Part shown: one piece after another, positions 1 to 61,340 of the stretch
Layout: each line of letters begins with the position of its first letter
Numbering within the stretch: the stretch's first letter is position 1
Assembly: GCA_032622095.1 (NCBI GenBank)
Contig: CP136067.1
Location: forward strand, 197,804,052-197,868,051
DNA: 64,000 bases
Direction of reading: 5' to 3'
DNA from: Siphonodentalium dalli
Taxonomy: Eukaryota; Mollusca; Scaphopoda; Gadilida; Siphonodentaliidae
Notes under the pieces: generated by a model
Told to the model about the DNA's origin: nothing
What the model saw: the letters and a program-made list of their open reading frames with translations, nothing else
Databases searched by the model: none
Made by a program: the position numbers and the translations under genes

Positions 1-140
1 TTAACTGTCATGTGGACTGTTTTTATGGAGATGTAACCGTGAGGTAAGTGGACATAACTTGTGTAAAACCCTTTACATACAAGTTATGACCACTTACCTC
101 ACGGTTACATCTCCATAAAAATAGTCTACATGACAGTTAA
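1..140. repeat. Near-perfect hairpin MITE with TTAA ends
   Basis: The two halves are reverse complements (TTAACTGTCATGTGGAC at the left, GTCTACATGACAGTTAA at the right) around a short loop near 55-80. Both ends are TTAA, as expected for elements that duplicate TTAA targets (piggyBac or Kolobok types). It has no coding capacity. Its left end falls on the window edge, so the flank cannot be checked. Confidence 0.75.
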
Positions 141-497
141 TCCTTATATTTATATATATTTAGCGAAAAAGCCACTTTTGTAAATGTATTTAAATTGAAT
201 AGTGTATCGTGACAAAAACAGCCCAAAGTACCCAATAGCACCCTTGGCAAAAGTTAATAGGAACAATTTCTCTTCATATTGCAACCAGGTGATGTATTAA
301 GTCAATCCTGCGCGAGTCCAAATGCGCCCAAAACATTACGCGTTCGTCTTTCCAAACCCAATGACGTATGGATGGTGTTGTGAGCTTGGTGTTATGAGCC
401 GTTGCGCATTCACCGAGAAATAACTGCAACTAGCCACGTGGGCGCGGACCAATCAGTATGCTGGATTTAGTGATGACAACACTTAGTATGTAAATAT
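141..497. other. Unassigned intergenic DNA
   Basis: No ORF, repeat or RNA gene could be recognised in this stretch. Confidence 0.4.
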
Positions 498-10617: not shown

Positions 10618-12243
10618 ATGTCGCGTTCACATGTACGGTCGAATGATGATACGTTGTTGGCCCTTGTGGGTCTGGGCACGTTACTATTGGGATAACTGGA
10701 ACGAACAAAACGACATCTAAATCGTAAGTGCTGGACAAAACCAATGAACTCCACCCTAGAACGGAACCGGTATGGAATTTCTCACAGTCTACTGCAGGAA
10801 TTAGAAGACGCGGATGAGAAAGAATTCACCAACTTCACGAGGTAAATATAAATGTTTATGTTGATAGGTGCATATTACCAGGAGAGTATTACTATTGAGA
10901 CATAACCATTTCACATGGGTGGACAATATAAAATATATTATAGGGTGAGTTGATGGCTGGTGCCACAGTCCCATGATGTACATAGTTCCAGTGCCACCGG
11001 GGGCCTATACATTACAACGCATCGTGCGAATGTTCTTGGGTGAGAATGCGTGCGTATTTGCAGTAAAGTTATTTTGGCATTCTGTGTTTTCGGCGTCTGT
11101 GTCTTCTGCGTCGTTTTCAGCGTATAAAATATGGCCCATTCTATGATTGCATATGGGAGGGGGTGATAATTTGTCAAAATATGTTATGAGCTACTTTACA
11201 TGGTGTTTTCTTTTTTCTTCAGGCTGAACAAGTCGGAGTTCCATACCGTATTGCAAAAAGTGACCCCATTGATTGCGAAACAAGATACAGTTATGAGATC
11301 AGCGTTGACTCCATATGAAAAACTTGCCACAACACTCAGATTTCTTGCTACAGGGGAAACGTACACAAGTCTACACTTCACTTCCAGAATCGCCAGATCA
11401 ACCATTGGTGCGTTTATTCCGGAAGTTTGTGATGCTATTTACGACACTCTACAGGGAGATTTCTTGAGAATGCCCGAAAACAAGCAAGAGTGGTTGCTCC
11501 ACGCAGATAACTTTGACAAAATGTGGCAGTTTCCTCATTGCTTGGGTGCAATCGATGGGAAACACATTGAAATTCGGAGGCCGTCTGACAGTGCATGCGA
11601 TCATCGGAACTATAAGGACTACGAGAGCATTGTTCTGATGGCTGTAGTTGATGCAACGGGAAAATTTATATGTTATGATCTGGGATCACCAGGGAGTAGT
11701 GCTGATGGTGGCATTTTCAAGGACAGTGGGATGTGTGATATACAGCAGAACTTCCCAGATGCTAGTCCACTTTCCAGTCCTAACAGAACACTGAGCATAC
11801 CGTATTTCCTTGTTGGTGATGACGCTTTCGCATTAAGCAATCACCTAATGAAGCCGTATCCCCATCGAACAGCCATTGGTGATCAGAAAGTTTTCAATTA
11901 CCGACTTTCGAGGGCACGTAGGACCGTCGAGTGTGCATTTGGTGTTTTGGTGGCTAGATTTAGAATACTTCTAGGGTCCATACAGTTGGACACCGATAAC
12001 GTGAATCGGGTAGTCCGTGCATGCATTGCTCTTCACAATTTTCTTGGGAAGGATGCGGATTTAGGTGTTTCGCAGAGCGGATGTTTACGATATGCTGAAC
12101 ATAATGCACAGTTGACTGCAACTGGAGATATTGGAGATTCGACAACTGTTCCGAATGTCGATGCTCGTGAAGTGAGGGACGAACTCAGTGACTTTTTTTT
12201 TGATGAGGGTGCGCTCCCTTTTCAGTGGAGTCTTATTGAGTAA
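10618..12243 (+). pseudogene. HARBI1/ALP1-like DDE transposase, two exons, one premature stop
   Basis: Exon 1 is 10618-10841 (donor G|GTAAAT, phase 2) and exon 2 is 11223-12243 (acceptor TTCTTCAG). Joined, they read through FTNFTR into LNKSEFHTVL, a junction typical of this family. The DDE_Tnp_4 fold is visible: the first Asp in GAIDGKHIEI (codon 11554), the second in VGDDAF (codon 11818) and Glu in RRTVECAFGVL (codon 11929), spaced about 88 and 37 residues. Length would be about 413 residues, normal for the family. Codon 26 is TAA (10693-10695), between LLLG and LERTKR in an otherwise continuous frame, so this copy probably makes no full-length transposase unless the stop is read through or an internal ATG (the first is in KPMNS) is used. 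It would act in the nucleus with the MADF protein encoded opposite. Confidence 0.85.
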
Positions 12244-13355: not shown

Positions 13356-14312
13356 TCAACAGTCTGGTGTACTAGGGGGTTGTACGTCCGTGGTGACACA
13401 TGACTGTCCAGTCGGATAAACATTACCATTCTGCATTCCATTCAGAGAATTATAATTCGATGTGAACATAACATTAGATCCTTGATTAGATTGTCCATTC
13501 ATCGAAGATCCAACATTTGGATACGCTGGCACCGTCGGTCCGGAAATAAAAGTTGAAGGGAAACTTTGATTTCCTTGGAAATTTTGTAAATAGCTGCTGC
13601 TCTCTTCAAAATTATATACAGTGGTTTGTAGCAAAAACTTGAGTCTACGTCGCTTTTCTGCATCCGGACAACGCCTCATTGCCATCGCGATGTCTCTACC
13701 AAACACATCACATTCATCCTCTTTCTGTGTAACATTATCGGCGATTGTAGCGAATGCCTGGGCTGCTGTGTCCACCCATGACGTAGCACCACGCTTCCTT
13801 CTCACGTTGGATGTCGACGGTAGCGTCGATTGCACAGAACTGTTATCGTTTGTGTCATTACTGCTGGTAGCAGGCACATCAGCATCACCTGAAATACTAT
13901 CCGAGATACTGGCTTGTGTTACATCGGAGTGGTCAGAAACGACGGTATTTGCACGTGTTTGTGGAATGTTAGAATAAGTCCCTGGTCCGGTCCACAGACT
14001 TTCCTCCAGAAAAGAGCATTCCTCAAAAAACTTCCATTTTGGTACATATATATCTTTGGCAGCAACGCCGCTTTTCTTGCTTTTATTCACCTTTCTCACT
14101 TCCTCTCGATACATGGTCCTTAAACTCTGTATTTTACTCTTCAGTGATTTTTCCGATAAACCCGGAATAATCGTGGACAAAATTTCCAAAAGTTCGTTAT
14201 AATCAGCTTTTTTCTTGTTTAGATCCTTGTATAAGTCGCTTTGTTTATTCCATATACTTTCTCTTATCTGCATCGCTTCCAACAATTCCGATACAGCTGC
14301 ATCTGTCCACAT
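13356..14312 (-). CDS. MADF-domain protein, Harbinger DNA-binding partner
   Basis: This is a 318-residue single-exon ORF. Residues 1 to about 107 form a MADF (Myb/SANT-like) domain: WTDAAVSELLEAM, KKADYNELLEIL, LSEKSLKSKIQSLRTMYRRE-like region, then VPKWKFFEECSFLEESLW. After it come a Ser/Thr/Asp-rich linker, a helical segment around WVDTAAQAFATIADNV with ADAEKRRR-type basic residues, and an Asn/Gly/Ser/Gln-rich tail. In PIF/Harbinger elements such a protein binds the TIRs and helps carry the transposase into the nucleus; that role is inferred from the family and from its place opposite the transposase in one TIR-bounded element. Unlike the transposase, the frame is intact. The start chosen is the first ATG, directly before the domain. 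Confidence 0.85.
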   Translation of the reverse strand: MWTDAAVSELLEAMQIRESIWNKQSDLYKDLNKKKADYNELLEILSTIIPGLSEKSLKSKIQSLRTMYREEVRKVNKSKKSGVAAKDIYVPKWKFFEECSFLEESLWTGPGTYSNIPQTRANTVVSDHSDVTQASISDSISGDADVPATSSNDTNDNSSVQSTLPSTSNVRRKRGATSWVDTAAQAFATIADNVTQKEDECDVFGRDIAMAMRRCPDAEKRRRLKFLLQTTVYNFEESSSYLQNFQGNQSFPSTFISGPTVPAYPNVGSSMNGQSNQGSNVMFTSNYNSLNGMQNGNVYPTGQSCVTTDVQPPSTPDC

Positions 14313-14566
14313 GATGTTAGCCTAATTATGCGTAGAATTTAACGTCGCAAAATAAAACACGCAATTGGGGAACTGACTTAATACGCGTGAAAATAATATA
14401 AGTAGATAAACATATATTCAGCTCATATCAATAAAAACATGCCACTTGCATGATATGTGAGTGAATAGGTTCAAACACAATTATGGACGATCGATCGTGC
14501 AATTTTATGTATCGTAGAGAATACAATGTGGCTAAACGTAATGAGTAGAGATCAGCCTTGGTGAAA

Positions 14567-14841
14567 CGCAATGGGTTAATTGGTCAGTCGACTCACTGTG
14601 TGAATATGCGGTGGGCGACATGACTTCCTATGCCATATAAATTATGTTGGCCAATTGTCACCAAACTCCACCATAATTAATTGTCACACCTACTATGCCA
14701 TCGAAACTGTGGTACGTGTGTCCGCAGCCAATGCATTATCTTATATATGCGAGGCGACCTATGGTCGACTCGCATATATAAGAGAATGCATTGGCACATG
14801 TTATATGGGTTGATACAAAAATCGACCTGGCACTCAAATGG
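14567..14841. repeat. Right terminal inverted repeat with embedded hairpin
   Basis: It mirrors 10093-10370. At about 14731-14797 it contains the hairpin CCAATGCATTATCTTATATATGCGAG... and complement. The left TIR lacks that hairpin, which recurs in several other elements in this window. Confidence 0.7.
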
Positions 14842-14867
14842 TTAAAGACACACGATCCGATTTGACA

Positions 14868-15140
14868 TACAGTAATGCCCAAAGTAATTGACCACTTAAC
14901 CACAAATATATATTTACATATCGACATGCAATCGCGCTGTGGAACTTAAATGGAGGACTGGTTGGTTAAAATCATGTCATGTGACGTCACCCACAGACCC
15001 CAAGCATTACGTCGATGTCAGTCAATCACAACTGAGAGCTTTCCGATGAATGGCAACAAGCCATATTTCCGACTAAATCCTCAAAAATTACCGATAATTC
15101 TGCTGCGGTTAAGTGGTCAATTACTTTGGGCATTACTGTA
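14868..15140. mobile_element. TACAGTAATG MITE, internally altered
   Basis: The ends are TACAGTAATGCCCAAAG and CTTTGGGCATTACTGTA. Only half of the central hairpin is present (GAGCTTTCCGATGAATGG...). The rest of the interior, about 14905-15030, is unrelated sequence. Confidence 0.7.
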
Positions 15141-17004: not shown

Positions 17005-18791
17005 TTCTTCAGAGTTGACTCTCTTGTATTATGAAAGCAAGCCCAATGAGGCCATGCACCTATTGTATGTTTATAACACACAAAAGACTATATCTTAGCA
17101 GAATGTATGTCTCTGATGATACAAACAATAAAATATCCAATGTATCCATAGTTGAATTTCATTTGGCAATATAGGAAAGCATACAATGTGACTTTATTTA
17201 GTTTCCACAAAGTATTTAAAGTAAAATATCCATGAAGTGATGTATTCTGCCTTGTCCTATATATTAAAATGCATGCAATGGACATGAGAAATGCTTAATT
17301 TATTGGTAGAGATGTCCATCTGATAAGAAATACTGACATTTTAGGTTTGATACACCATTTCAGCTGGCTTGGTATCTTTTAAATTTGAAACCTAAGGGAA
17401 TTTATTCAGCTTTGACTCTCTAAATTATGGAAGAAAGCCCAAATGAAGCCACTATTTGCATGTTAGTAACATGTATAAGGATATATCTCAATAGAATACA
17501 TGTCTCTGATAAAATGCACAATAAAATATCCATAGTTCAATTGCATTTGGCTATAGAGGGATGCATACAATATTGCTTTTATGTAGGTTCCACAGACTAT
17601 TTTAAGTAAAATATCCATCAAATGATGTTTTCTACATAGCCTTGTATATTAAAATGCATGTAATGACCATGGGAAATGTTTAATTCATTAGTTGATATGT
17701 CCATCTGATAAGAAATACTGACATTTGAGGTTTAAAATACCATTTCATGGGATTATGGGATCATAAATATCAAACTAAGGGAATTTCTTCAGATTTGACT
17801 CTCTAAATAATGGAAGAAAGCCCATATGAAGCCACTATTTGCATGTTAATGACATGTATAAGGCTATATCTCAACATAATACATGTCGCTGATAAAATAC
17901 ACAATAAAATATCCATAGTTTAATTGCATTTGGCTATAGAGGGCTGCATACAATATTGCTTTTAAGTAGTTTCCACAGACTATTTTAAGTACGATATCCA
18001 TCAAATAATGTTTTCTACCTTGCCCTATATATCATAATGCACACATTGACCATGAGAAATGTTTAATTTATTGGGAGAGATGTCCATCTGATAAGAAATA
18101 CTGCCATTTAAGGTTTGATATACCATTTCAGCTGTCTTGGCATCTTACAAATTTAAAATAAGGGAATCTCTTCAGGTTTGACTCTCTAAATTATGGAAGC
18201 AAGCCAAAATGAAGCCACTATTTGCATGTTTATAACATATATAAGGCTATATCTCAACAGAATACATGTCTCTGATGAAATCAACAATAAAATATCCATA
18301 GTTTAATTTATTTTGGCTATACAGGGATGCATACAACATGGCTTTTAGGTTGTTTCCACAGACTATTTTAAGTAAAATATCCATCAAATGTTGTTTTATG
18401 CATGGTCCTATATATTATAATGCATGCAGTGACTATGAGAAATGTTTAATTTATTGGTACAGATGTCCATCTGATAAGAAATACTGTCATTTGAGGTTTG
18501 ATAGACCATTTCAGCTGGCTTGGCATCTTACAAATTTGAAATAAGGGAATTTATTCAGCTTTGACCCTCTAAATTATGGAAAAAAAGCCTAAATTATGCC
18601 ATTATTGGCATGTTTATAACATATATAAGGCTATATCTGAACAGAATACATGTCTCAGATGAAATAAACAATACAATATCCATAGTTTAATTTGATTTGG
18701 CTATACAGGGATGCATACAATATTGCTTTTATGTAGTTTCCACTGAATATTTAAAGTAAAATATCCATCAAATGATGTTTTCTATCTTGGC
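17005..18791. repeat. 384-bp tandem satellite, left block
   Basis: The landmark TTGACTCTCTAAATTATGG recurs at about 17010, 17412, 17793, 18176 and 18558, and ATATCCATCAAATGATGTTTT recurs with the same spacing, so the monomer is about 384 bp. The last monomer is cut at CTTGGC (18786-18791) and resumes after the palindrome at 25666. Confidence 0.9.
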
Positions 18792-19154
18792 TGATGATAC
18801 CCCGCCCGTTTGGTCTCATTTCAGGAACGATAACTCTATCCGAAGTACACGACCTATATGCAGTACATGGAGTTTGACCTATATTCTCTGCCCACGCGTC
18901 GGTCTATTTGTATACCGGTTGGACATGTCCGGACATGACCCGCTGGTTATATCCAGATTTCTCCATATGAATGGTATATTATCTACATGTATATCACGTG
19001 ATGATCTCGGTGTAGTAGCTTCAGTCTTGAATATTAAAGGGATACTAGTCTCTCACGGGGGATGATTATTAAAGTGACACTCACTATGGATGAATGTTAA
19101 AGTAACACATGGCGCACACTGTGGGATAATGTTAAAGTGACACTCGCATTGAAA

Positions 19155-19385
19155 ACTTCAAAAAGTTCAAAAAGTTCAAAAAGTTCAAAAAGTTCAAAAA
19201 TTTCAAAAACTTCAAAAATTTCAAAAAGGTCAAAAAGTTCAAAAATTTCAAAAACTTACAAAAGTTCAAAAATTTCGAAAAACTTCAAAAACTTCAAAAA
19301 ATTTCAAAAACTTCAAAAACTTCACAAATTTCACAAATTTCACAAATTTCACAAATTTCACAAATTTCACAAATTTCAAAAAACT
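19155..19385. repeat. 9-bp tandem repeats, left arm
   Basis: Runs of TTCAAAAAG-like 9-mers pass into TTTCACAAA 9-mers. They lie between the outer end of the arm and the 3' side of the ATPase gene. Confidence 0.8.
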
Positions 19386-19421
19386 TTAAAAATTAAACAA
19401 AATTCAGGATTTAGTCATAAA

Positions 19422-19513
19422 TGTGACCCGCTATATCAAATCCAGTCGAAAGTCGGGATTTTTTTTATCCTGTGCCAATGCATTCTCTTATATATGCGAG
19501 TCGACCAGCCACC
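19422..19513. repeat. Half of a TGTGACCCGC MITE inside the left arm
   Basis: It runs TGTGACCCGCTATATCAAAT through the half-hairpin CCAATGCATTCTCTTATATA to GCGAGTCGACC, then switches to GCC-rich DNA. The same sequence is the left terminus of the complete MITEs at 44459 and 55522. The mirror copy is at about 24944-25035. Confidence 0.75.
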
Positions 19514-19739
19514 GCCGCCGGCGGCGGCGGCGGCAACTACATAATCCTATGGCATGCAAAGAAATTGGCGCCGGCGCTGCCGCCGGCGGTTCAGGATTTA
19601 GTCAAAAATATGGCTTGTTTCCATTCATCGGAAAGCTATGGGGGTACGGTGGTGAGCGCCACTGAAAAAAGCAAGTGAGCGAGGGAAAAAAGAGAAAAAT
19701 AACATGACAAGTAGTACATAGTACAATTTATTATATTAA

Positions 19740-21464
19740 CTATTCACAGTCACTTTCGTCCGAATTGTCATCACTTTCGTCAGATGTGTCATTTGTTTCG
19801 TCCATGAACTTTTCTAGCAATGGTCTGTACTTTAATATTGACATTTTCACTGCATCACGATCTTCAAAACCATTCTTCATATATTTCTCCACTTTATCCA
19901 TGACACTATTGTGCAGCGTACCATTGCGCAGCCACATATTCTTTATTATTGTCCAAGCATAAACATTCATAAATAGCCTCATGCCTTCAGTTTTAAGATC
20001 TGTACTTTTAAGGTCCTTGTCAGCTTGTACTTTTGCCTCTTTTTCTGTCGAGCCATTTTCCATATACGTTTCCACGTTATCACTCCATGCTTCTTGTGCT
20101 TTATCTCTACTCTCATCACACAAACTTTTGAAGTATTCATCTTCATTCGATTTAATTTTCTTATTCTGACTATCATCCGTGTCCTCAGTTAATTTTCGTT
20201 TTAACTTATTTTCTTGACACCAGTTTTTTACGTGTCTCTGGACATCATGCTGATCTTCGAACAAAAGCCCACAGTCATTGCAAGGGTACGACATGTCTTC
20301 TCGAATGCCTATGTTTTTATGGTTTTCTTTATTAATTTCATTGATCTCACCAGGTGTCCTTATGTCCTTAGTATAGCCATTATGTTGACCCTGGGGCACA
20401 CTATAATTATATGTCATGCACTCCCGTTGACCAGGGAGATCTCTGTCATCATATTTCATCTCATTCCGTTGATCCGGGCTATTGTTGTCATCACATTTCA
20501 CCACATTCTGTTCATCTGGGTGCTCGCTGTCCTTATGGAGATTATATTTCATGCCATTCCATTCACCCATATGTTGGTTCGTGTCCTCTTTTAGCACATT
20601 CTGTCGCAGCCGTAATGTGTCCGGGGTTGCGGCTTTTAAATCCACCAGTAGGTAACCGTACGGTTCACTCGTCGCTTCCGAAAACTCTCGCATCATACGT
20701 TGAGGGCATTCAGGATACATCTGTCTTGATAATGTTGAAATTAAACCCTTGTCAATTGGATTATTGAACAATACCAAATATTGACAATTTCGTCGTTGCG
20801 TCGGATCCTTGTTGTAGTAGAAATTCTGGTTCAAACTTATCAAAGATAAGTTCAAATGGTGACTTCCTTCGGAATGTAAATCATTAACTCTCTGGTCTTT
20901 TGATGAAGTTTGCATCAAGTCATCGAGTACAACTAGATTTTTATACTGGGGGTTGATAAGAGAATCCAAGTTTGCTGGTATTCCCCGTATAAAGTTGACC
21001 TGAGGGGTGACGGTATACTTTATGTCATCATATAGGGGCTGCCAATATTTATAAAACCATATTATTCTGTCAGGTGCGGGTGATATTTTTGAGGCAGACT
21101 TTTGTAGCAAGGTTTTCACGAAGTACGTCTTCCCACTAGATGTTGGTCCACTTACACATGCCGTGAATGGATGCTTGAAAATAAAATCTTCTTGGACATT
21201 GGCCATTGAATCATCAAAGCAGGATGTTATGTCGCTTTGTTGCTGTTTCCCCTGCTGGTGTTGTAGTATCTGGTGTTGCTGTAATGGCGGTTGTTGTGGC
21301 TGATGATGCTGCTGCCTGTTGCTGCTGCTGCTGTTTGTTGCTGCTGCTTGGTGGTGCTGCTGTGGGTGTCGGTTAACAAACTCAGTGTGCTTAGATTGTA
21401 CATGTCTTATCAAATCATGGTTCCGCACATACTCACTAGAGCAAATTGAACACTGGTGCTTCAT
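19740..21464 (-). CDS. Zinc-finger P-loop ATPase, left-arm copy
   Basis: The 574-residue translation is identical to that of 22993-24717, described in full there. The gene runs outward from the spacer. A TATA element (CCTTTATA on the plus strand, 21503-21510) lies about 39 bp before the ATG, and an AATAAA signal on the minus strand (19727-19732) follows the stop closely. Identity of both whole reading frames implies recent formation or active homogenisation of the arms. Confidence 0.85.
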   Translation of the reverse strand: MKHQCSICSSEYVRNHDLIRHVQSKHTEFVNRHPQQHHQAAATNSSSSNRQQHHQPQQPPLQQHQILQHQQGKQQQSDITSCFDDSMANVQEDFIFKHPFTACVSGPTSSGKTYFVKTLLQKSASKISPAPDRIIWFYKYWQPLYDDIKYTVTPQVNFIRGIPANLDSLINPQYKNLVVLDDLMQTSSKDQRVNDLHSEGSHHLNLSLISLNQNFYYNKDPTQRRNCQYLVLFNNPIDKGLISTLSRQMYPECPQRMMREFSEATSEPYGYLLVDLKAATPDTLRLRQNVLKEDTNQHMGEWNGMKYNLHKDSEHPDEQNVVKCDDNNSPDQRNEMKYDDRDLPGQRECMTYNYSVPQGQHNGYTKDIRTPGEINEINKENHKNIGIREDMSYPCNDCGLLFEDQHDVQRHVKNWCQENKLKRKLTEDTDDSQNKKIKSNEDEYFKSLCDESRDKAQEAWSDNVETYMENGSTEKEAKVQADKDLKSTDLKTEGMRLFMNVYAWTIIKNMWLRNGTLHNSVMDKVEKYMKNGFEDRDAVKMSILKYRPLLEKFMDETNDTSDESDDNSDESDCE

Positions 21465-21502
21465 TTATACTTGACTAAAATATCTCGGGGGTATATGGCT
21501 TT

Positions 21503-21510
21503 CCTTTATA
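21503..21510 (-). promoter_or_regulatory. TATA box, left ATPase gene
   Basis: TATAAAGG on the minus strand, about 39 bp before the start codon; mirrored at 22947-22954. Confidence 0.55.
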
Positions 21511-21620
21511 CAAATGTTCCTTATAACCTCAAATCTGTCCTGTATTAACGGCGGCGGCGTTTGCCGACGGCGTTTTTTCCACCGGCCTTTCAATAGCCTT
21601 CGAAAATTTAGGTAAATTAC

Positions 21621-21842
21621 TCATTTTAGTTCAGTGAATATGTCGTTTGGAGTTTTCTTTTTAACTTTTCCAATGTTTGTCTTCTTCGCTTTTCCTGCTT
21701 TTATCTCTTTAACTTTTATCTTCTTAGATCCGGGTTTCCTTATAAGTTTTTCAGGTTTCACTTCAGTCTCGGGTAGGTACTTCGAGTCATCGTAGGGTAC
21801 ATATTTTTTAAGATCAAAGTCATAATAGTGCGGAGTCCCCAT
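21621..21842 (-). CDS. 73-residue lysine-rich protein, left-arm copy
   Basis: Identical to the product of 22614-22835, described there. It lies nearest the spacer and is transcribed outward, ahead of the ATPase gene on the same strand. Confidence 0.65.
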   Translation of the reverse strand: MGTPHYYDFDLKKYVPYDDSKYLPETEVKPEKLIRKPGSKKIKVKEIKAGKAKKTNIGKVKKKTPNDIFTELK

Positions 21843-21878
21843 TCCGGCTAAAGTTCAAAGTGTACTCTGAAGTAGTAA

Positions 21879-21888
21879 TTTTTATATA
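21879..21888 (-). promoter_or_regulatory. TATA box, left small gene
   Basis: TATATAAAAA on the minus strand, 37-46 bp before the ATG at 21842; mirrored at 22568-22577. Confidence 0.6.
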
Positions 21889-21959
21889 CGCCAAAATACC
21901 ATCCAAGACGTATACCCTTATAAACTACGGGTCAGTCCTAGTAACGCGCACGTCAACGC

Positions 21960-21991
<32 letters not shown>

Positions 21992-22016
21992 TCTGTTGTT
22001 GTTGTAGTTGTTGTTG

Positions 22017-22430
22017 ATACAAATGTCATTGCAATTATGAGTGATTTCCAATTGCACCACCCCCTCCTTCAACCAGACCAAACTCCGATACCAAATACCA
22101 TATTTGCACCTCCTCCCTTAGGTTGGAAAGTTGGTACCTCAAACGTTCGAACAGTTTGAAATGTCTAATCTAAATTTCCAACAGACGGATGGACATCATT
22201 TCAGACTATTATTGGTCTAAAAACTACAAATTTCACACTAATAACATGTTGGAAAATCAGACAATGAAACAAGTTCAACCTACATGTGGTGTAAAATTCC
22301 AACTAATGTGTCGGGCATGACATTTTCAACTTATTGCTATCAAAGTTGAGGGTGGGGGCAGACATCCCAGCCCCCTGTCGCCACGTCCCTGTCGTCCTTG
22401 TATATAATGCAGGAAGTTTGAACATGTGAA
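22017..22430. other. Unique central spacer of the palindrome
   Basis: This 414-bp single-copy segment lies between the arms. It is flanked on each side by GTT/AAC triplets and a pure GCC/GGC tract (9 units ending at 21990; 12 units from 22457). The promoters of both small genes point away from it, so it is the natural place for an origin or a bidirectional control region; that is inference. Short open frames crossing it (36-50 residues) have no recognisable features. Confidence 0.7.
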
Positions 22431-22455
22431 CAACAACAACTACAACAACAACAGA

Positions 22456-22496
<41 letters not shown>

Positions 22497-22567
22497 GCGT
22501 TGACGTGCGCGTTACTAGGACTGACCCGTAGTTTATAAGGGTATACGTCTTGGATGGTATTTTGGCG

Positions 22568-22577
22568 TATATAAAAA
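22568..22577 (+). promoter_or_regulatory. TATA box, right small gene
   Basis: TATATAAAAA, 37-46 bp before the ATG at 22614. Confidence 0.6.
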
Positions 22578-22613
22578 TTACTACTTCAGAGTACACTTTG
22601 AACTTTAGCCGGA

Positions 22614-22835
22614 ATGGGGACTCCGCACTATTATGACTTTGATCTTAAAAAATATGTACCCTACGATGACTCGAAGTACCTACCCGAGACTGAAGTGAAA
22701 CCTGAAAAACTTATAAGGAAACCCGGATCTAAGAAGATAAAAGTTAAAGAGATAAAAGCAGGAAAAGCGAAGAAGACAAACATTGGAAAAGTTAAAAAGA
22801 AAACTCCAAACGACATATTCACTGAACTAAAATGA
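22614..22835 (+). CDS. 73-residue lysine-rich protein, right-arm copy
   Basis: The short ORF is preceded by a good TATA box and present identically in both arms. The N-terminal third is acidic/aromatic (HYYDFDLKKYVPYDD), and the rest is strongly basic (KKIKVKEIKAGKAKK, then KVKKKTPNDIF). No signal peptide or membrane span was seen. The charge pattern would suit a nucleic-acid-binding or DNA-condensing protein such as the small core proteins of DNA viruses and Polinton-like elements, but I recognise no family. It lies 157 bp upstream of the ATPase start on the same strand, with a separate TATA box for the ATPase in between, so the two are probably separate transcripts. Confidence 0.65.
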   Translation: MGTPHYYDFDLKKYVPYDDSKYLPETEVKPEKLIRKPGSKKIKVKEIKAGKAKKTNIGKVKKKTPNDIFTELK

Positions 22836-22946
22836 GTAATTTACCTAAATTTTCGAAGGCTATTGAAAGGCCGGTGGAAAAAAACGCCGTCGGCAAACGC
22901 CGCCGCCGTTAATACAGGACAGATTTGAGGTTATAAGGAACATTTG

Positions 22947-22954
22947 TATAAAGG
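22947..22954 (+). promoter_or_regulatory. TATA box, right ATPase gene
   Basis: TATAAAGG, about 39 bp before the ATG at 22993. Confidence 0.55.
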
Positions 22955-22992
22955 AAAGCCATATACCCCCGAGATATTTTAGTCAAGTATAA

Positions 22993-24717
22993 ATGAAGCA
23001 CCAGTGTTCAATTTGCTCTAGTGAGTATGTGCGGAACCATGATTTGATAAGACATGTACAATCTAAGCACACTGAGTTTGTTAACCGACACCCACAGCAG
23101 CACCACCAAGCAGCAGCAACAAACAGCAGCAGCAGCAACAGGCAGCAGCATCATCAGCCACAACAACCGCCATTACAGCAACACCAGATACTACAACACC
23201 AGCAGGGGAAACAGCAACAAAGCGACATAACATCCTGCTTTGATGATTCAATGGCCAATGTCCAAGAAGATTTTATTTTCAAGCATCCATTCACGGCATG
23301 TGTAAGTGGACCAACATCTAGTGGGAAGACGTACTTCGTGAAAACCTTGCTACAAAAGTCTGCCTCAAAAATATCACCCGCACCTGACAGAATAATATGG
23401 TTTTATAAATATTGGCAGCCCCTATATGATGACATAAAGTATACCGTCACCCCTCAGGTCAACTTTATACGGGGAATACCAGCAAACTTGGATTCTCTTA
23501 TCAACCCCCAGTATAAAAATCTAGTTGTACTCGATGACTTGATGCAAACTTCATCAAAAGACCAGAGAGTTAATGATTTACATTCCGAAGGAAGTCACCA
23601 TTTGAACTTATCTTTGATAAGTTTGAACCAGAATTTCTACTACAACAAGGATCCGACGCAACGACGAAATTGTCAATATTTGGTATTGTTCAATAATCCA
23701 ATTGACAAGGGTTTAATTTCAACATTATCAAGACAGATGTATCCTGAATGCCCTCAACGTATGATGCGAGAGTTTTCGGAAGCGACGAGTGAACCGTACG
23801 GTTACCTACTGGTGGATTTAAAAGCCGCAACCCCGGACACATTACGGCTGCGACAGAATGTGCTAAAAGAGGACACGAACCAACATATGGGTGAATGGAA
23901 TGGCATGAAATATAATCTCCATAAGGACAGCGAGCACCCAGATGAACAGAATGTGGTGAAATGTGATGACAACAATAGCCCGGATCAACGGAATGAGATG
24001 AAATATGATGACAGAGATCTCCCTGGTCAACGGGAGTGCATGACATATAATTATAGTGTGCCCCAGGGTCAACATAATGGCTATACTAAGGACATAAGGA
24101 CACCTGGTGAGATCAATGAAATTAATAAAGAAAACCATAAAAACATAGGCATTCGAGAAGACATGTCGTACCCTTGCAATGACTGTGGGCTTTTGTTCGA
24201 AGATCAGCATGATGTCCAGAGACACGTAAAAAACTGGTGTCAAGAAAATAAGTTAAAACGAAAATTAACTGAGGACACGGATGATAGTCAGAATAAGAAA
24301 ATTAAATCGAATGAAGATGAATACTTCAAAAGTTTGTGTGATGAGAGTAGAGATAAAGCACAAGAAGCATGGAGTGATAACGTGGAAACGTATATGGAAA
24401 ATGGCTCGACAGAAAAAGAGGCAAAAGTACAAGCTGACAAGGACCTTAAAAGTACAGATCTTAAAACTGAAGGCATGAGGCTATTTATGAATGTTTATGC
24501 TTGGACAATAATAAAGAATATGTGGCTGCGCAATGGTACGCTGCACAATAGTGTCATGGATAAAGTGGAGAAATATATGAAGAATGGTTTTGAAGATCGT
24601 GATGCAGTGAAAATGTCAATATTAAAGTACAGACCATTGCTAGAAAAGTTCATGGACGAAACAAATGACACATCTGACGAAAGTGATGACAATTCGGACG
24701 AAAGTGACTGTGAATAG
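22993..24717 (+). CDS. Zinc-finger P-loop ATPase resembling packaging ATPases, right-arm copy
   Basis: 574 residues. A C2H2 finger is at residues 5-26 (C5, C8, H21, H26), then a Gln/His-rich linker to about residue 75. The ATPase core follows: Walker A GPTSSGKT at 106-113, Walker B NLVVLDDL at 176-183 with D181/D182, and a polar sensor-like strand LSLISLNQNFY. This order fits the A32/FtsK-HerA packaging ATPases of Polinton, adintovirus-like and large DNA virus elements, which pump DNA into capsids; the family call is by pattern only. A second finger (C395, C398, H411, C416) precedes a basic stretch and two similar helical repeats (VETYMENG..., VEKYMKNG...), and the C-terminus is Asp/Ser-rich. 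Fingers at this position are an unusual addition to such ATPases. AATAAA at 24725-24730 directly follows the stop. Confidence 0.85.
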   Translation: MKHQCSICSSEYVRNHDLIRHVQSKHTEFVNRHPQQHHQAAATNSSSSNRQQHHQPQQPPLQQHQILQHQQGKQQQSDITSCFDDSMANVQEDFIFKHPFTACVSGPTSSGKTYFVKTLLQKSASKISPAPDRIIWFYKYWQPLYDDIKYTVTPQVNFIRGIPANLDSLINPQYKNLVVLDDLMQTSSKDQRVNDLHSEGSHHLNLSLISLNQNFYYNKDPTQRRNCQYLVLFNNPIDKGLISTLSRQMYPECPQRMMREFSEATSEPYGYLLVDLKAATPDTLRLRQNVLKEDTNQHMGEWNGMKYNLHKDSEHPDEQNVVKCDDNNSPDQRNEMKYDDRDLPGQRECMTYNYSVPQGQHNGYTKDIRTPGEINEINKENHKNIGIREDMSYPCNDCGLLFEDQHDVQRHVKNWCQENKLKRKLTEDTDDSQNKKIKSNEDEYFKSLCDESRDKAQEAWSDNVETYMENGSTEKEAKVQADKDLKSTDLKTEGMRLFMNVYAWTIIKNMWLRNGTLHNSVMDKVEKYMKNGFEDRDAVKMSILKYRPLLEKFMDETNDTSDESDDNSDESDCE

Positions 24718-24943
24718 TTAATATAATAAATTGTACTATGTACTACTTGTCATGTTATTTTTCTCTTTTTTCCCTCGCTCACTTGCTTTTTTCAGTGGCG
24801 CTCACCACCGTACCCCCATAGCTTTCCGATGAATGGAAACAAGCCATATTTTTGACTAAATCCTGAACCGCCGGCGGCAGCGCCGGCGCCAATTTCTTTG
24901 CATGCCATAGGATTATGTAGTTGCCGCCGCCGCCGCCGGCGGC

Positions 24944-25035
24944 GGTGGCTGGTCGACTCGCATATATAAGAGAATGCATTGGCACAGGATAAAAAAAATC
25001 CCGACTTTCGACTGGATTTGATATAGCGGGTCACA
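24944..25035. repeat. Half of a TGTGACCCGC MITE inside the right arm
   Basis: Mirror copy of 19422-19513. Between it and the ATPase 3' end is a GCC/GGC-rich segment and half of the GCTTTCCGATGAATGG hairpin (24827-24866) known from the TACAGTAATG MITEs. Confidence 0.75.
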
Positions 25036-25071
25036 TTTATGACTAAATCCTGAATTTTGTTTAATTTTTAA

Positions 25072-25302
25072 AGTTTTTTGAAATTTGTGAAATTTGTGAA
25101 ATTTGTGAAATTTGTGAAATTTGTGAAATTTGTGAAGTTTTTGAAGTTTTTGAAATTTTTTGAAGTTTTTGAAGTTTTTCGAAATTTTTGAACTTTTGTA
25201 AGTTTTTGAAATTTTTGAACTTTTTGACCTTTTTGAAATTTTTGAAGTTTTTGAAATTTTTGAACTTTTTGAACTTTTTGAACTTTTTGAACTTTTTGAA
25301 GT
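25072..25302. repeat. 9-bp tandem repeats, right arm
   Basis: Mirror of 19155-19385 (TTTGTGAAA and CTTTTTGAA 9-mers). Confidence 0.8.
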
Positions 25303-25665
25303 TTTCAATGCGAGTGTCACTTTAACATTATCCCACAGTGTGCGCCATGTGTTACTTTAACATTCATCCATAGTGAGTGTCACTTTAATAATCATCCCCC
25401 GTGAGAGACTAGTATCCCTTTAATATTCAAGACTGAAGCTACTACACCGAGATCATCACGTGATATACATGTAGATAATATACCATTCATATGGAGAAAT
25501 CTGGATATAACCAGCGGGTCATGTCCGGACATGTCCAACCGGTATACAAATAGACCGACGCGTGGGCAGAGAATATAGGTCAAACTCCATGTACTGCATA
25601 TAGGTCGTGTACTTCGGATAGAGTTATCGTTCCTGAAATGAGACCAAACGGGCGGGGTATCATCA

Positions 25666-27245
25666 CTTGGCCTATATATTATAATGCATGCAGTGACTAT
25701 GAGAAATGTTTAATTTATTGGTACAGATGTCCATCTGATAAGAAATACTGTCATTTGGGGTTTGATACACCATTTCAGCTGGCTTGGCATCTTGTAAATT
25801 TGAAATAAGGGAATCTCTTCAGGTTTGACTCTCTAAATTATGGAAGCAAACCCAAATAAAGGTACTATTTGCATGTTTATAACATATATAAGGCTATATC
25901 TCAACAGAATGCATGTCTCTAATGAAATAAACAATAAAATATCCATAGTTTAATTTCATTTGGCTATACAGGGATGCATACAATATGGCTTTTATGTAGA
26001 TTTGACAGACTATTTTAATTAATATTTCCATCAAATGATGTTTCTACCTTGTCCTGTATATTAAAATGTATGCAATGACCATGAGAAATGTTTAATTTAT
26101 TAGTAGAGATGTCCATCTGATAAGAAATATTGCCATTTGAGGTTTGATACACCATTTCAGTTGGCTTCGCATCTTACAAATTTGAAATAAGGGAATCTCT
26201 TCAGGTTTGACTCTCTAAATTATGGAAGCAAGCCCAAAATGAAGCCACTATTTGCATGTTTATAACATATATAAGGCAATATCTCAACCGAATACATGTC
26301 TCTGGTGAAATAAACAATAAAATATCCATAGTTTAATTTCTTTTGGCTACACAGGGATGCATACAATATGGCTTTTAAGTTGTTTCCACAGACTATTTTA
26401 AGTAAAATATCCATCAAATGATGTTTTCTAACTTGTCCTGTATATTAAAATGCATGCAATGACTATGAGAAATGTTTAATTTATTGGTAGAGATGTCCAT
26501 CTGATAAGAAATACTGCCATTTGAGGTTTGATACACCATTTCAGCTGGCTTGGCATCTTATAAATTTGAAATAAGGGAATCTCTTCATGTCTGACTCTCT
26601 AATTTATGGGAGCAAGCCCAAATGAAACCACTATTTGCATGTTTTTAACATATATCTCAACAGAATACATGTCTCTGATCAAATAAACAATAAAATATCC
26701 ATAGTTTAATTTCTTTTGGCTATACAGGGATGCATAGAATATGGCTTTTATGTTGTTTCCACAGACTATTTAATAAAATATCCATCAAATGGTGTAATTT
26801 ATATCAGGCTCTGTGTATTAAAATGCATACAGTTGCAATGAGAAATGTTTAATTTATTGGCAGGAATGTCCATCTGACAAGAAGTAACAATATTTGATGT
26901 TTGTGACATCAACTCACCGGGCCAGGCTTGCTACAACTTTCAAACTAAGAGAATTTCCTCATGTTTGACTCACTAAATGATGGAAGTTAGCCCAAATGAA
27001 GCAACTATTTGCATGTTTATAATGTATAAGGCTATATCTTTGCAGAAGGCATGTCTCTGATAATAAAAATGATAACATGTCTATAGTTCATAGTTCAGTT
27101 GGTTAGACAGGGTTCATACAATATGGCTTTAATTATAGTTTTCACAAACTAGAAATTTTAGAATATTTATAAAATGATGTAATCTACCTTGCCCTGTGTA
27201 TTAAAAGTGCATGCAATAACCTAATGCATGTTCAGTTCATTGGCA
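25666..27245. repeat. 384-bp tandem satellite, right block
   Basis: It continues the array broken at 18791. TTGACTCTCTAAATTATGG-type landmarks lie at about 25822, 26206, 26587 and 26959. Later monomers are more divergent. In all about nine monomers are present, counting both blocks. Confidence 0.9.
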
Positions 27246-37916: not shown

Positions 37917-38133
37917 TGCAGTAATGCTCTAAGTAATCAACTCCTTAACCACAGCAGAATTATGGGTAACTTTTCAGGATTTAGTCGGAAATATGGCTTG
38001 TTGCCATTTATCGGAAAGCTCTCAGAGAGCTTTCCGATGAATGGCAACAAGCCATATATCCGACTAAATCCTGAAAAGTTACCCATAATTCTACTGTGTT
38101 TAAGGAGTCGATTATACTCGGGGAATTACTGTA
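37917..38133. mobile_element. TACAGTAATG-family MITE, diverged but complete
   Basis: Left end TGCAGTAATGCTC, right end GGAATTACTGTA, with the full central hairpin of GGCTTGTTGCCATTTATCGG and complement. It is the full-length counterpart of the truncated copy at 2708. Confidence 0.7.
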
Positions 38134-44458: not shown

Positions 44459-44911
44459 TGTGACCCGCCATATCAAATCCAGTCGGACGTCGGGATTTTT
44501 TACCCTGTGCCAATGCATTCTCTTATATATGCGAGTCGACCATAGGTCGCCTCTCATATATAAGAGAATGCATTGGCCTAACAATTTTTACAATTTTAAT
44601 AATTTGTTCTTGTTTTCTTTAACAATTTATAATTTCACCCATTCAGAGCCCCAGACAAACATGAGCAGACGACACTCTTCTATGTGCTTCTATATATGTG
44701 TGGGGCTCCCTGCAGGGTAATGGATGTTTTTTATTTTATGTCCTACAAATTGTAAGAAACATTTATTTTTTTAAAAATGATAAAAAATTGTTAGGCCAAT
44801 GCATTCTCTTATATATGCGAGGCGACCTATGGTCGACTCGCATATATAAGAGAATGCATTGGCACAGGGTAAAATCCCGACTTACAACTGGATTTGATAT
44901 GGCGGGTCACA
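44459..44911. mobile_element. TGTGACCCGCC MITE, copy 1 (453 bp)
   Basis: The ends are TGTGACCCGCCATATCAAAT and its complement. Each side carries a complete hairpin of CCAATGCATTCTCTTATATA...GCGAG. The middle contains CAGACAAACATGAGCAGACG. Related to 55522-55968, which carries the middle in the opposite orientation. The flanks suggest a short TA-type duplication but are ambiguous. Confidence 0.8.
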
Positions 44912-45166
44912 TATGTTCTAGTATCGGTTTAATTGTGTGAATTTTACACCAGCAAATATAGTTTACGGTTGTATTGTCTTATTTTTGTGTAATTTATCGT
45001 TGGAAACAGAGATCGAAGTGTGTGTATTTTATGAACTTTCGGCCGGTTTCGACCCGTCATTCGGATTCAGCTATCTATCAACGGAAAATCATGTTTTCCA
45101 AAGACTTTTTGTTTAGCGAAATACGTATTAAATAGTCGAAAATAAAGTTTCGTTGGTGTAATTATT
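44912..45166. other. Unassigned DNA
   Basis: Nothing supported. Confidence 0.3.
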
Positions 45167-54582: not shown

Positions 54583-55521
54583 GTGGAAAACATGTACTGG
54601 TACCTGATAGGGATAGTATTCTTTCCCCTACATGTATTAAAATGTGTCTGCATGTCTGAAATAATCGACCAAATGTATGTATGTGTGTGCAATTAAAGTA
54701 AAGATTATATAATAAGACATCTTAAACCGTTAAAGCTACTCATTCCGATCAGACGGTTCCCATATAATCAAGATACAACAACATCTCTTCAAAATATGCT
54801 TTAGTTATCAAAATAGATTTATTGCATCAAAATAATGCTAACCACTGTCAACTATGGTATAACATTTCCAAAACTTGTTATTTATCAACATTTTGTTCAA
54901 CAAAATATGGCGGTATTATCACCTAAGTATCACGGAATTTGGCCGTATTACCAGTTGATTTTAGAGTTATCGATCTTCATCCGCAATTTTGTCAGAGACC
55001 ACCTGTTTGACCACGTGTTTCTGGGCCACATTTAATTGCTCATCTCGAGAAATAACAAAAATCGATATCTGATCACTCTGAGTTTTTATGGGTGGGTTCA
55101 TCGACTCGAATCACATATTTGTTTACCCCCGAAGCCAACGAAATAGTAATTTATTAGCGTTAATTCGGATTAATTAAAGTAGTCAGACAAGGCTGACAAC
55201 CCGATGGTCACCAGCCATTCCACCACATTATCACATGACCAAATTCAATTCGGAAGATGATCCTATATGCCACCATAGTATTGTTCTTCACAGTAAGATA
55301 TAGGCTGTAAATATTATGGTAAAATACCGGCAGCAGAGTTGCCACCAATGATATTTAACGAAAACGTTTTGGTCACCGAAATTGCCACAAACTTATTAAT
55401 AGTCACCCCATTGTACTTGGAATCTATGGTACGAATCATATAGCACCGCGAGGAGTCAAAGATCATGATTGGAGCAACGCCAAATTCGACAACAAAATAT
55501 CTCCGATTTCCTCCGAACATA
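54583..55521. other. Intron DNA
   Basis: 54730-55170 resembles 6225-6620 (AACATTTCCAAAACTTG..., ATCGATATCT, ACTCGAATCACATAT), so an old interspersed repeat is present. No gene. Confidence 0.4.
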
Positions 55522-55968
55522 TGTGACCCGCCATATCAAATCCAGTCGTAAGTCGGGATTTTGTTTACCCTGTGCCAATGCATTCTCTTATCTATGCGAG
55601 TCGACCATAGGTCGCCTCGCATATATAAGAGAATGCATTGGCCTAACAATTTTTTATCATTTTTTTAAAATAAATGTTTCTTACAATTTTTAGGATATAA
55701 AATAAAAAACATCCATTACCCACACATAAATAGAAGCATATAGAAGAGTGTCGTCTGCTCATGTTTGTCTGGGGCTCTGTATGGGTGAAATTATAAAATT
55801 GTTAAAGAATACAAGAAAAAATTATTAAAATTGTAAAAAAATGTTAGGCCAATGCATTCTCTTATATATGCGAGGCGACCTATGGTCGACTCGCATATAT
55901 AAGAGAATGCATTGGCACAGGGTAAAACAAATTCCGACTTACGACTGGATTTGATATGGCGGGTCACA
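55522..55968. mobile_element. TGTGACCCGCC MITE, copy 2 (447 bp)
   Basis: Same termini and paired hairpins as 44459-44911, with the middle section in the opposite orientation. Confidence 0.8.
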
Positions 55969-56029
55969 TATATACATGTAGACTTAGTGTGATATATTAG
56001 TGCTATCTTTCATGGCAGGAATGGAGATA

Positions 56030-56510
56030 GGTGTATCGTGGTCTAGTGATGAAGGTACAGTTGGCCGCGTACTGGAACAATAAAGAGTCCAGAATATTCG
56101 ATAACTTTTATATTATTAAGTAAGTCTCCGTCGATAAGCACAGTGTCGGTAGATGAACAGAGGAGTTGGTGGATCGGTGGTCTAAGCGGGAGTGTATCTG
56201 TATCCCTCGACACGAGTAGTTATTCCAACGTATGCTGTATCATGCATCCAAATAAGGTCTGATATACCACGATACACTTGTCTATGACGTGTACCGTACT
56301 ATTGTTTACTATAGATTGATACTTGTTTGATCCTCCCTCACTTATACAATGGTTGATACCAGTCATAACCAATTAAGAATATGATCTTGTTAATTATGCT
56401 TGTGTGTTATTATACTATATCATTTACATTTACCACGTACTGTGCTTAACTATAAAATTAACCCTATCATTACAATCACTGGGGGAAGGAAGGGTATCGT
56501 AGATCCGGGA
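56030..56510. repeat. Local duplication, copy 1
   Basis: Similar to 62035-62530 in the same orientation (CTGGAACAATAAAGAGTCC, GATAAGCACAGTGTCGG, GTCTGATATACCACGATA, ATTAACCCTATCATTACAAT). Immediately after it the 63-bp minisatellite begins. Copy 2 has no such expansion. Confidence 0.65.
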
Positions 56511-57450
56511 ATACCTATAACAATAGCTATACTATCGTATGTACTATCGGACAGAGGGACAGCTCCTCCGGGAATACCTATAACAATAGCTATACTATCG
56601 TATGTACTATCGGACAGAGGGACAGCTCCTCCGGGAATACCTATAACAATAGCTATACTATCGTATGTACTATCGGACAGAGGTACAGCTCCTCCGGGAA
56701 TACCTATAACAATAGCTATACTATCGTATGTACTATCGGACAGAGGGACAGCTCCTCCGGGAATACCTATAACAATAGCTATACTATCGTATGTACTATC
56801 GGACAGAGGGACAGCTCCTCCGGGAATACCTATAACAATAGCTATACTATCGTATGTACTATCGGACAGAGGTACAGCTCCTCCGGGAATACCTATAACA
56901 ATAGCTATACTATCGTATGTACTATCGGACAGAGGGACAGCTCCTCCGGGAATACCTATAACAATAGCTATACTATCGTATGTACTATCGGACAGAGGGA
57001 CAGCTCCTCCGGGAATACCTATAACAATAGCTATACTATCGTATGTACTATCGGACAGAGGTACAGCTCCTCCGGGAATACCTATAACAATAGCTATACT
57101 ATCGTATGTACTATCGGACAGAGGTACAGCTCCTCCGGGAATACCTATAACAATAGCTATACTATCGTATGTACTATCGGACAGAGGTACAGCTCCTCCG
57201 GGAATACCTATAACAATAGCTATACTATCGTATGTACTATCGGACAGAGGGACAGCTCCTCCGGGAATACCTATAACAATAGCTATACTATCGTATGTAC
57301 TATCGGACAGAGGGACAGCTCCTCCGGGAATACCTATAACAATAGCTATACTATCGTATGTACTATCGGACAGAGGTACAGCTCCTCCGGGAATACCTAT
57401 AACAATAGCTATACTATCGTATGTACTATCGGACAGAGGTACAGCTCCAA
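56505..57450. repeat. 63-bp minisatellite, 15 nearly identical units
   Basis: Fifteen tandem units of 63 bp (CCGGGAATACCTATAACAAT...) differ almost only at one site (GAGGGACAG or GAGGTACAG). Because 63 is a multiple of three and the unit has no stop, it is open on both strands (21-residue repeats on each). It lies about 200 bp downstream of a lectin exon donor, inside the intron. Confidence 0.95.
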
Positions 57451-61100: not shown

Positions 61101-61340
61101 GATACATTCACATAGTAAATTTCAAGTCGATCGCTCCACCCGTTTCCCAGATCTCGTCTGCGCATGCGCTGCACTGCGTCGCACGGGCTCGCAAATACGA
61201 CAGCGACGACCGCCTGGTCAAACTACACACACGTACCAAGTTTCGTCCCGATCGGTCGAGAATCGTAGATTTGTGTCAATGACATACAGACAGACATACA
61301 GACAGACAGACAGACAGAGGTCTTCAAAATATATATGAGA
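58137..61340. repeat. 122-bp repeat clusters carrying GCGCATGCGC
   Basis: The unit GAAGCTGGCGTCGCACGGGC...GCAAATTTCAAGTCGATAGC recurs in short runs at 122-bp spacing, inverted in 58190-58660 and forward in 58745-59640, 59700-60010 and 60830-61290. Outer ends are TCTG/CAGA microsatellites next to TTTTGAAGACCTC or GAGGTCTTCAAAA. 60050-60820 is a different filler with TTTGAGCTCAATCGG repeats. Open frames through the array follow from lack of stops; no gene is supported. Confidence 0.8.

Follow-up and report, generated by a model that had tools for sequence, protein, structure and literature searches.

How a mobile element comes to consist of two mirrored copies of the same gene pair is the question raised by positions 18792–25665 of a 64,000 nucleotide (nt) stretch of the genome of the scaphopod Siphonodentalium dalli (accession: CP136067.1, 197,804,052–197,868,051), hereafter the window. 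The initial annotation of this palindrome had offered two readings, a head-to-head dimer of a linear replicon made by hairpin-ended or self-primed replication and a passenger of Polinton-like elements. Analysis of the element and of its relatives in the host genome indicated that it is probably a non-autonomous, self-complementary (snap-back) derivative of a Polinton/Maverick which was inserted in trans by Polinton enzymes. The two earlier readings are each partly right and are mutually compatible.

Alignment of the two arms (Table 1) revealed that they differed solely by a 1 nt insertion or deletion (indel) at 21573 and by a 9 nt difference in the length of a (CGG)n tract at 21963, which bears out the annotation of reverse-complement arms of approximately 3.2 kb; an inverted repeat of this length is no product of chance. 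The central spacer also exists, although the 414 bp first given for it becomes approximately 395–427 nt depending on the treatment of a ragged GTT/AAC edge. The termini read TGATGA and TCATCA, the trinucleotide being repeated twice at each end. When the flanks were fused without one copy of the duplicated CTTGGC, the units of the surrounding 383 bp satellite could be aligned through the junction (up to 585 columns, with a minimum of 2 gaps), and as a satellite unit was thereby restored the element represents a single clean insertion. Halves of two host foldback repeat families sit in the arms beyond the 3′-end of the ATPase gene, which suggests that a genome with such repeats was their source and that mirroring of the arms came later. 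Foldback repeats were also found in the host DNA across 2260–2520, 14680–15130 and 37930–38120.

Both arms contain the two outward-facing open reading frames (ORFs) that had been annotated, encoding a 73 amino acid (aa) basic protein and a 574 aa ATPase, and the TATA-like boxes at 22568 and 22947 agree with the annotation of one box per gene. A Pfam scan of both genes placed the ATPase in the A32/FtsK-HerA packaging class. Its named relatives were bivalve proteins, some of which were fused in gene models to an integrase, a chromodomain or a protease. The 73 aa protein had no relative outside the element family at an E value of 0.001 among 5.8 billion proteins and nothing convincing in PHROGs. 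Scans of IMG/VR with the ATPase, the 73 aa protein and an alignment confirmed no relative, Foldseek with a structure model returned no match at E ≤0.001, a sequence search of PDB gave weak zinc-finger matches only, and Rfam and tRNA scans found none. Apart from these two genes, no frame longer than 147 aa from stop to stop is present in 18792–25665.

The host genome comprises 2.23 Gb in 9 contigs; genome coordinates are written as G000 with C1–C9 and fetched loci as L followed by a number. The genome-wide search for further copies that had been proposed was made with the ATPase and gave 5434 candidates; the best 76, which were scored, were all 97–100% identical. These included at least 28 mirrored pairs, as 56 of the 76 matches formed 28 −/+ pairs and the other 20 had no mate in the list. 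Loci were fetched for seven of the 20 mateless matches: L021 and L025 contained the inner portion of the second arm, L020 a fragment of it and L024 a deletion-bearing second arm, while L023 and L026 showed a single arm fused to unrelated DNA and L029 had an N gap at its centre. Among 17 two-arm elements, all 14 palindromes in which both ends were readable had exact and mutually different 6 bp duplications (read by eye). The copies read were stand-alone palindromes with their own duplications; the initial annotation had named copies always embedded in a larger known Polinton as a refuting outcome, and this was not what they showed. The element is therefore neither an artefact nor a one-off. Loop identity was 98.6–100% across the loci retaining the loop, of which L005/L015 retained 301 nt; a loop match was not found in L035 or L038, and in L038 both arms meet at the GC-rich tract. 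This near-uniform loop points to one founding palindrome for the ATPase palindrome family.

Comparison of the ATPase coding arms within each element revealed no differences in 10 of the 17, one in L005/L015 and between 3 and 28 in the six oldest (L032–L035, L037 and L038), that is, at most 28 substitutions in approximately 1.7 kb. Over 22560–24860, eight substitutions occurred in two or more elements, each of them in both arms of all carriers. Young elements had private substitutions in both arms and few in one arm (an exception is a gap of approximately 40 nt in one arm of L002/L003); old elements had accumulated one-arm changes. Both-arm substitutions are common to several copies, whereas the arms of old copies diverge independently; re-matching of the arms therefore seems to take place within the cycle rather than in the chromosome. 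Gene conversion in place was rejected because old copies retain their one-arm changes. The earlier reading of a head-to-head dimer formed by hairpin or self-primed replication stands in so far as symmetric arms that change in concert would be expected from it.

With the window ATPase gene as reference and loci ranked by protein similarity, the differences inherited in both arms numbered 12 synonymous, 11 amino acid and 0 stop changes, and those between the arms of an element 12 synonymous, 55 amino acid and 5 stop changes (Fisher P = 0.0017, small numbers). For L032–L038 alone the counts were 10:9:0 inherited against 12:54:5 arm-versus-arm (P = 0.0026). Equal rates would give 19% synonymous and 5% stop changes. 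The inherited substitutions are thus depleted of amino acid changes, and those arising after insertion look neutral. This test disfavours the ATPase as a harmless passenger, although that possibility is retained as a caveat given that protein score determined the ranking of the copies.

When the terminal 349 nt served as query, the best 40 of 1468 candidates were scored and yielded 13 pairs with loci of both ends: five of 6.9–7.1 kb, already known as palindromes, five of 13.6–14.3 kb and three of 4.7–5.8 kb. In all 13 the inverted repeat extended to roughly the end of the sequence retrieved (≤1.85 kb), with indels interrupting a few, and the 6 bp duplication was exact in 12 and had one mismatch in the other; five of these pairs overlap the 14 palindromes described above. 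The ends of the ~14 kb elements and the centres of two of them were read. These elements share their last ~600 nt with the window element (Table 1), and the 13.6 kb one shares 983 nt at 90–91% identity. The middle 1250 nt of one 13.6 kb and one 14.3 kb element were each 98% palindromic and were 96% alike. The ~14 kb elements were rejected as complete ordinary Polintons, as both their ends and their centres are palindromic. In the 4.7–5.8 kb class, a C2H2 finger reading lay by the terminal repeat in all eight loci (L055–L060, L064 and L068; the mate of L064 was unseen) and continued into a long polyglutamine frame in L055/L056, L059/L060 and L068.

A second, distant ATPase subfamily occurred as at least 10 −/+ pairs with matched parts 377–538 bp apart among the best 81 of 16216 candidates. 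It is probably a second palindromic family, and C7:128252357/128255771 may be a third. As this subfamily is also found in −/+ pairs, palindrome formation looks recurrent.

The connection to Polintons was further examined through the 13.6 kb element (L053/L054). A 75 aa stub near both of its ends resembled the end of the PolB remains of L001 (E value 1e-9 over 34 residues) and was directly followed by a 201 aa ORF. A Pfam scan of this region revealed nothing convincing, so the stub is only a probable PolB 3′-end. The contig L001, catalogued under a Bathymodiolus symbiont metagenome-assembled genome, encodes a degenerate, probable Polinton PolB together with a relative of the ATPase; it is probably host contamination. 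The stub had 1188 candidates in the host genome; of the best 150, which were scored, the top 33 had a frame of just 75 aa, and 28 of these formed 14 −/+ pairs whereas 5 were without a listed mate. Another set, with 119 aa frames, formed 8 tight −/+ pairs, 336 bp from start to start, and is perhaps a further, smaller palindromic family. Most of the other matches covered residues 9–75 alone and were unmirrored; a few lay in long frames (1282, 1085, 873, 760 and 720 aa) and many in short or broken ones. The 201 aa ORF, the start of which may resemble an F-box, was strongly conserved across mirrored and unmirrored copies and directly followed several long-frame stub copies, for example C2:24625461–24625661 (frame 1282) and then C2:24625651–24626229. 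Because the order of stub and ORF is the same in the sister palindrome and in the long-frame copies, the stub-bearing palindromes seem to contain an unbroken portion of a Polinton, truncated at varying points.

A Pfam search of the host genome for PolB (best 69 of 1596 candidates scored) found frames mostly of approximately 952 or 1312–1324 aa, with no head-to-head pair among these 69. The integrase search (best 150 of 3102 scored) revealed intact frames of 363 and 377 aa in many identical copies, which were nearly always unmirrored, the exceptions being three, perhaps four, inward-facing pairs, possibly palindromes with the integrase toward the centre. Enzymes for a trans-acting helper thus exist, as intact PolB and integrase frames are present elsewhere in the genome. 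A scan with the Pfam protease family gave zero matches, the control being likewise matchless. The Polinton part of the earlier passenger reading is supported by the A32-type ATPase, by relatives fused to Polinton genes, by the 6 bp duplications, by the repeated terminal trinucleotide and by a sister palindrome that shares the termini and bears a probable PolB 3′-end.

Intact vertebrate Mavericks are reported to have terminal repeats of 46–1447 bp and AGT/ACT as the commonest terminal motif, with the trinucleotide repeated twice (PMC8097293). The window element shares with Polintons/Mavericks (polintoviruses, adintoviruses) the 6 bp duplication, the A32-type packaging ATPase and a doubled terminal trinucleotide, here TGA/TCA; the letters differ from the vertebrate motif whereas the kind of reiteration is the same (PMC8097293). 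Unlike them, it has two genes only, both duplicated, is palindromic as a whole and lacks PolB, integrase, protease and capsid, and its 3.2 kb arms exceed the repeat lengths reported for vertebrate Mavericks in that source (PMC8097293). As outlined in PMC11071296, adintoviruses are defined by a PolB with an OTU-like domain, a hexon and an integrase with a chromodomain, for none of which is there a long enough frame in 18792–25665. The element is not an autonomous Polinton.

Its form also resembles the snap-back genomes of adeno-associated virus (AAV), in which part of the parent and a terminal repeat are doubled head to head, either symmetrically or asymmetrically with a loop (PMC8235507). A head-to-head duplication, with or without a loop, is present in the element and its copies; the window element looks like the asymmetric form so described, and L038 and the ~14 kb class to the symmetric one (PMC8235507). 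AAV is a parvovirus and its snap-backs are subgenomic particles in a virus population, in contrast to the amplified, integrated family with target duplications found here.

The preferred origin combines these two likenesses. A Polinton would have been undergoing protein-primed replication by strand displacement when one strand, displaced or nascent, folded back and served as its own template; a terminal piece comprising the terminus, the ATPase and the 73 aa gene would thus have been doubled head to head about a loop. Strands later displaced from this palindrome could anneal to themselves as hairpins of half its length, one arm pairing with the other as a single duplex; synthesis starting at the terminal origin and continuing round the loop would give the full palindrome again and erase mismatches between the arms, and an integrase acting in trans would insert the product with a 6 bp duplication. 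We infer all of these steps (terminal-protein-primed displacement, fold-back, copying round the loop and integration in trans) by combining Maverick-type ends with the snap-back genomes of AAV. Such genomes are known as by-products of virus populations, and here the form is apparently heritable, integrated and amplified, with sister families. Each copy would also record the changes passed through the cycle, as mutations arising in the cycle appear in both arms and those arising after insertion in one. Two questions thereby become testable from sequence alone: do Polintons still have a free-DNA replication stage, and do their packaging genes remain in use?

Several observations weigh against the snap-back derivation. 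No PolB or retroviral-type integrase is present in 18792–25665, where no frame is long enough, nor is an adenovirus-type protease or a jelly-roll capsid, judged by frame length with Pfam applied to the ATPase and the 73 aa protein only. An ordinary Polinton with the ATPase or the 73 aa gene at its end was not found among the copies listed. The PolB identity of the stub depends on L001, whose PolB match scores 22.1 bits against a Pfam cut-off of 25.8; the stub was found in a sister palindrome that has just its last 983 nt in common with the window element, and 0 of the 69 scored PolB places lie within the listed ~14 kb palindromes. The comparison of substitutions comprised 23 inherited and 72 arm-versus-arm differences among copies ranked by protein score. 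L036 has a 1 nt insertion in both arms which breaks the ATPase frame, and was inserted all the same; an intact ATPase is therefore not required in every copy and a broken one can pass the cycle.

To these are added one-arm differences common to two or more elements, at six gap places and one substitution. One-arm gaps at 22746–22747, 22815–22816 and 23124–23126 are common to L035 and L037, both of which are old, deletion-rich copies; others lie within 22918–22957 (L002/L003 and L035) and at 24665–24685 (L034 and L037), and a homopolymer length difference at 22878 affects one arm in six elements and both arms in L037. Recurrent loss is expected at 24665–24685, as it forms part of a 21 nt direct repeat, and three adjacent one-arm substitutions held in common lie at the edge of this deletion. 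The one-arm substitution at 23003 (coding nt 11) is common to L035 and L037 and is doubtful in L035, as that element lacks coding nt 1–25 in one arm.

The alternative that survives best, although we consider it unlikely, is a segmented (multipartite) Polinton, in which each palindrome would be a segment with one module and common termini, jointly making up a virus-like element. The packaging ATPase would be supplied by the window element, kept functional by selection and re-symmetrised each cycle via the half-length hairpin, and other segments would supply the PolB 3′-end with its ORF, the finger protein or further modules. Termini of ~600 nt common to 4.7–14 kb palindromes of differing content, the constrained-looking inherited ATPase substitutions and the −/+ pairs of the second ATPase subfamily are in keeping with such an arrangement. 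There is a precedent in the two-segment bidnaviruses, which the consulted part of PMC4061559 presents as separate DNA molecules with a conserved terminal structure and a Polinton-type PolB; it describes no palindromic segments or integrated copies, and the gene set differs. However, the probable PolB of the palindromes is a 75 aa stub, whereas PolB and integrase are intact and unmirrored elsewhere, and a whole PolB, capsid or protease gene was not seen in any palindrome, the inner arms of the ~14 kb elements lying mostly outside the DNA read. A complete Polinton as helper would also make segmentation unnecessary. A literature search over titles and abstract openings, with most subscription journals outside it, found no description of palindromic or segmented Polintons. 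If the segments were real they would, to our knowledge, be without precedent as a multipartite double-stranded DNA element that is both palindromic and integrating.

Less likely again is an independent linear replicon with hairpin ends, present as a head-to-head dimer and tied to Polintons only by its captured ATPase and its use of an integrase in trans. The symmetric and concerted arms and the spacerless centres of three elements would be expected of such a replicon; the duplication length and the reiterated terminal trinucleotide are of the Maverick kind, however, and the sister with the same termini has the probable PolB 3′-end and then the ORF in the order of the long-frame copies. Nor was a free monomer seen.

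Foldback elements and miniature inverted-repeat transposable elements consist mostly of inverted repeat, are non-autonomous and reach many copies. The long inverted arms, and the host foldback-repeat halves within them, could suggest a foldback-type or long-terminal-repeat cut-and-paste DNA transposon with a captured Polinton gene, which we regard as improbable. The foldback-repeat halves lie inside the arms and not at the ends, there is no further frame above the length given earlier, and the 6 bp duplications are consistent. Polinton-like ends, an apparently constrained viral-type gene and a sister with the probable PolB stub also set this family apart from such elements. An assembly artefact, arising from chimeric reads of palindromic form or from duplication of a contig end, is very improbable and was rejected for the family as a whole, for although the arms here are near-identical and, of the seven mateless entries with loci, two are one-armed and one has its centre in an N gap, the copies have differing flanks with matching duplications on both sides, the arms of old copies have diverged and other families share the plan.

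Table 1. Positions of the features of the palindromic element and its surroundings (window coordinates) and of related pairs in the host genome (G000 coordinates).
Feature	Position	Strand	Remarks
Element	18792–25665		palindrome: left arm, loop, right arm
Left arm	18792–22014	.	3223 nt
Right arm	22442–25665	.	3224 nt
Central loop/spacer	22017–22441	.	425 nt block
(CGG)n GC-rich tract	21957–21992	.	inner edge of left arm
(CCG)n GC-rich tract	22456–22503	.	inner edge of right arm
Left target-site duplication	18786–18791	.	CTTGGC
Right target-site duplication	25666–25671	.	CTTGGC, exact match to left copy
383 bp satellite, left flank	17143–18784	.	insertion target
383 bp satellite, right flank	25666–27221	.	
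Terminal ~600 nt, left	18792–19392	.	common to ~14 kb palindromes at 86–90%; begins TGATGATACC, the first letters of the element
Terminal ~600 nt, right	25065–25665	.	mirror of left terminal ~600 nt; ends GGTATCATCA, the last letters of the element
9 bp tandem repeat array, left	19152–19394	.	
9 bp tandem repeat array, right	25063–25305	.	
Host foldback repeat family 1, about half	19421–19507	.	left arm; mirrored in right arm
Host foldback repeat family 1, whole copies	44459–44912, 55521–55973		
Host foldback repeat family 2, about half	19590–19637	.	left arm; mirrored in right arm
Host foldback repeat family 2, copies	near 2290–2370, 15037–15084, 37973–38075		
574 aa ATPase, left copy	19740–21464	-	ORF
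574 aa ATPase, right copy	22993–24717	+	protein identical to left copy
ATPase domains, N-terminal part	residues 3–26; ~91–298		C2H2 finger; A32/FtsK-HerA-type P-loop domain
ATPase domains, C-terminal half	residues ~393–417		second C2H2 finger, then helical C-terminus
73 aa basic protein, left copy	21621–21842	-	
73 aa basic protein, right copy	22614–22835	+	
TATA-like box	22568–22577	+	5′ of 73 aa gene; mirrored in left arm
TATA-like box	22947–22952	+	5′ of ATPase gene; mirrored in left arm
AATAAA	24725–24730	+	past ATPase stop; mirrored in left arm
119 aa stub pairs	C5:57892524, C1:246168291, C2:5456497, C4:267029633, C2:183739200, C3:6792767, C9:160489878, C7:181392788	-/+	
Inward-facing integrase pairs	C3:112391982/112402030, C3:293381532/293386035, C6:118373111/118378936		intact, 363 aa
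Possible fourth integrase pair	C3:217836049/217848880		inward-facing, 377 aa
Distant ATPase pairs	C3:252236683, C4:214227685, C5:130151874, C5:132348704, C2:173787449, C6:161827052, C5:53853933, C7:57845452, C8:90296718, C6:126697651	-/+	coordinates only

Elsewhere in the window, Pfam analysis revealed a DDE_Tnp_4 transposase ORF at 11170–12243 (+) and a MADF/Myb-like ORF at 13356–14321 (-), which together are presumably the two-gene set of a PIF/Harbinger transposon. A 63 bp tandem repeat of 15 copies, 99% alike and open in several frames, was found at 56504–57448, and a 122 bp tandem repeat was present in three blocks (58265–58587, 59189–59494 and 60872–61191).

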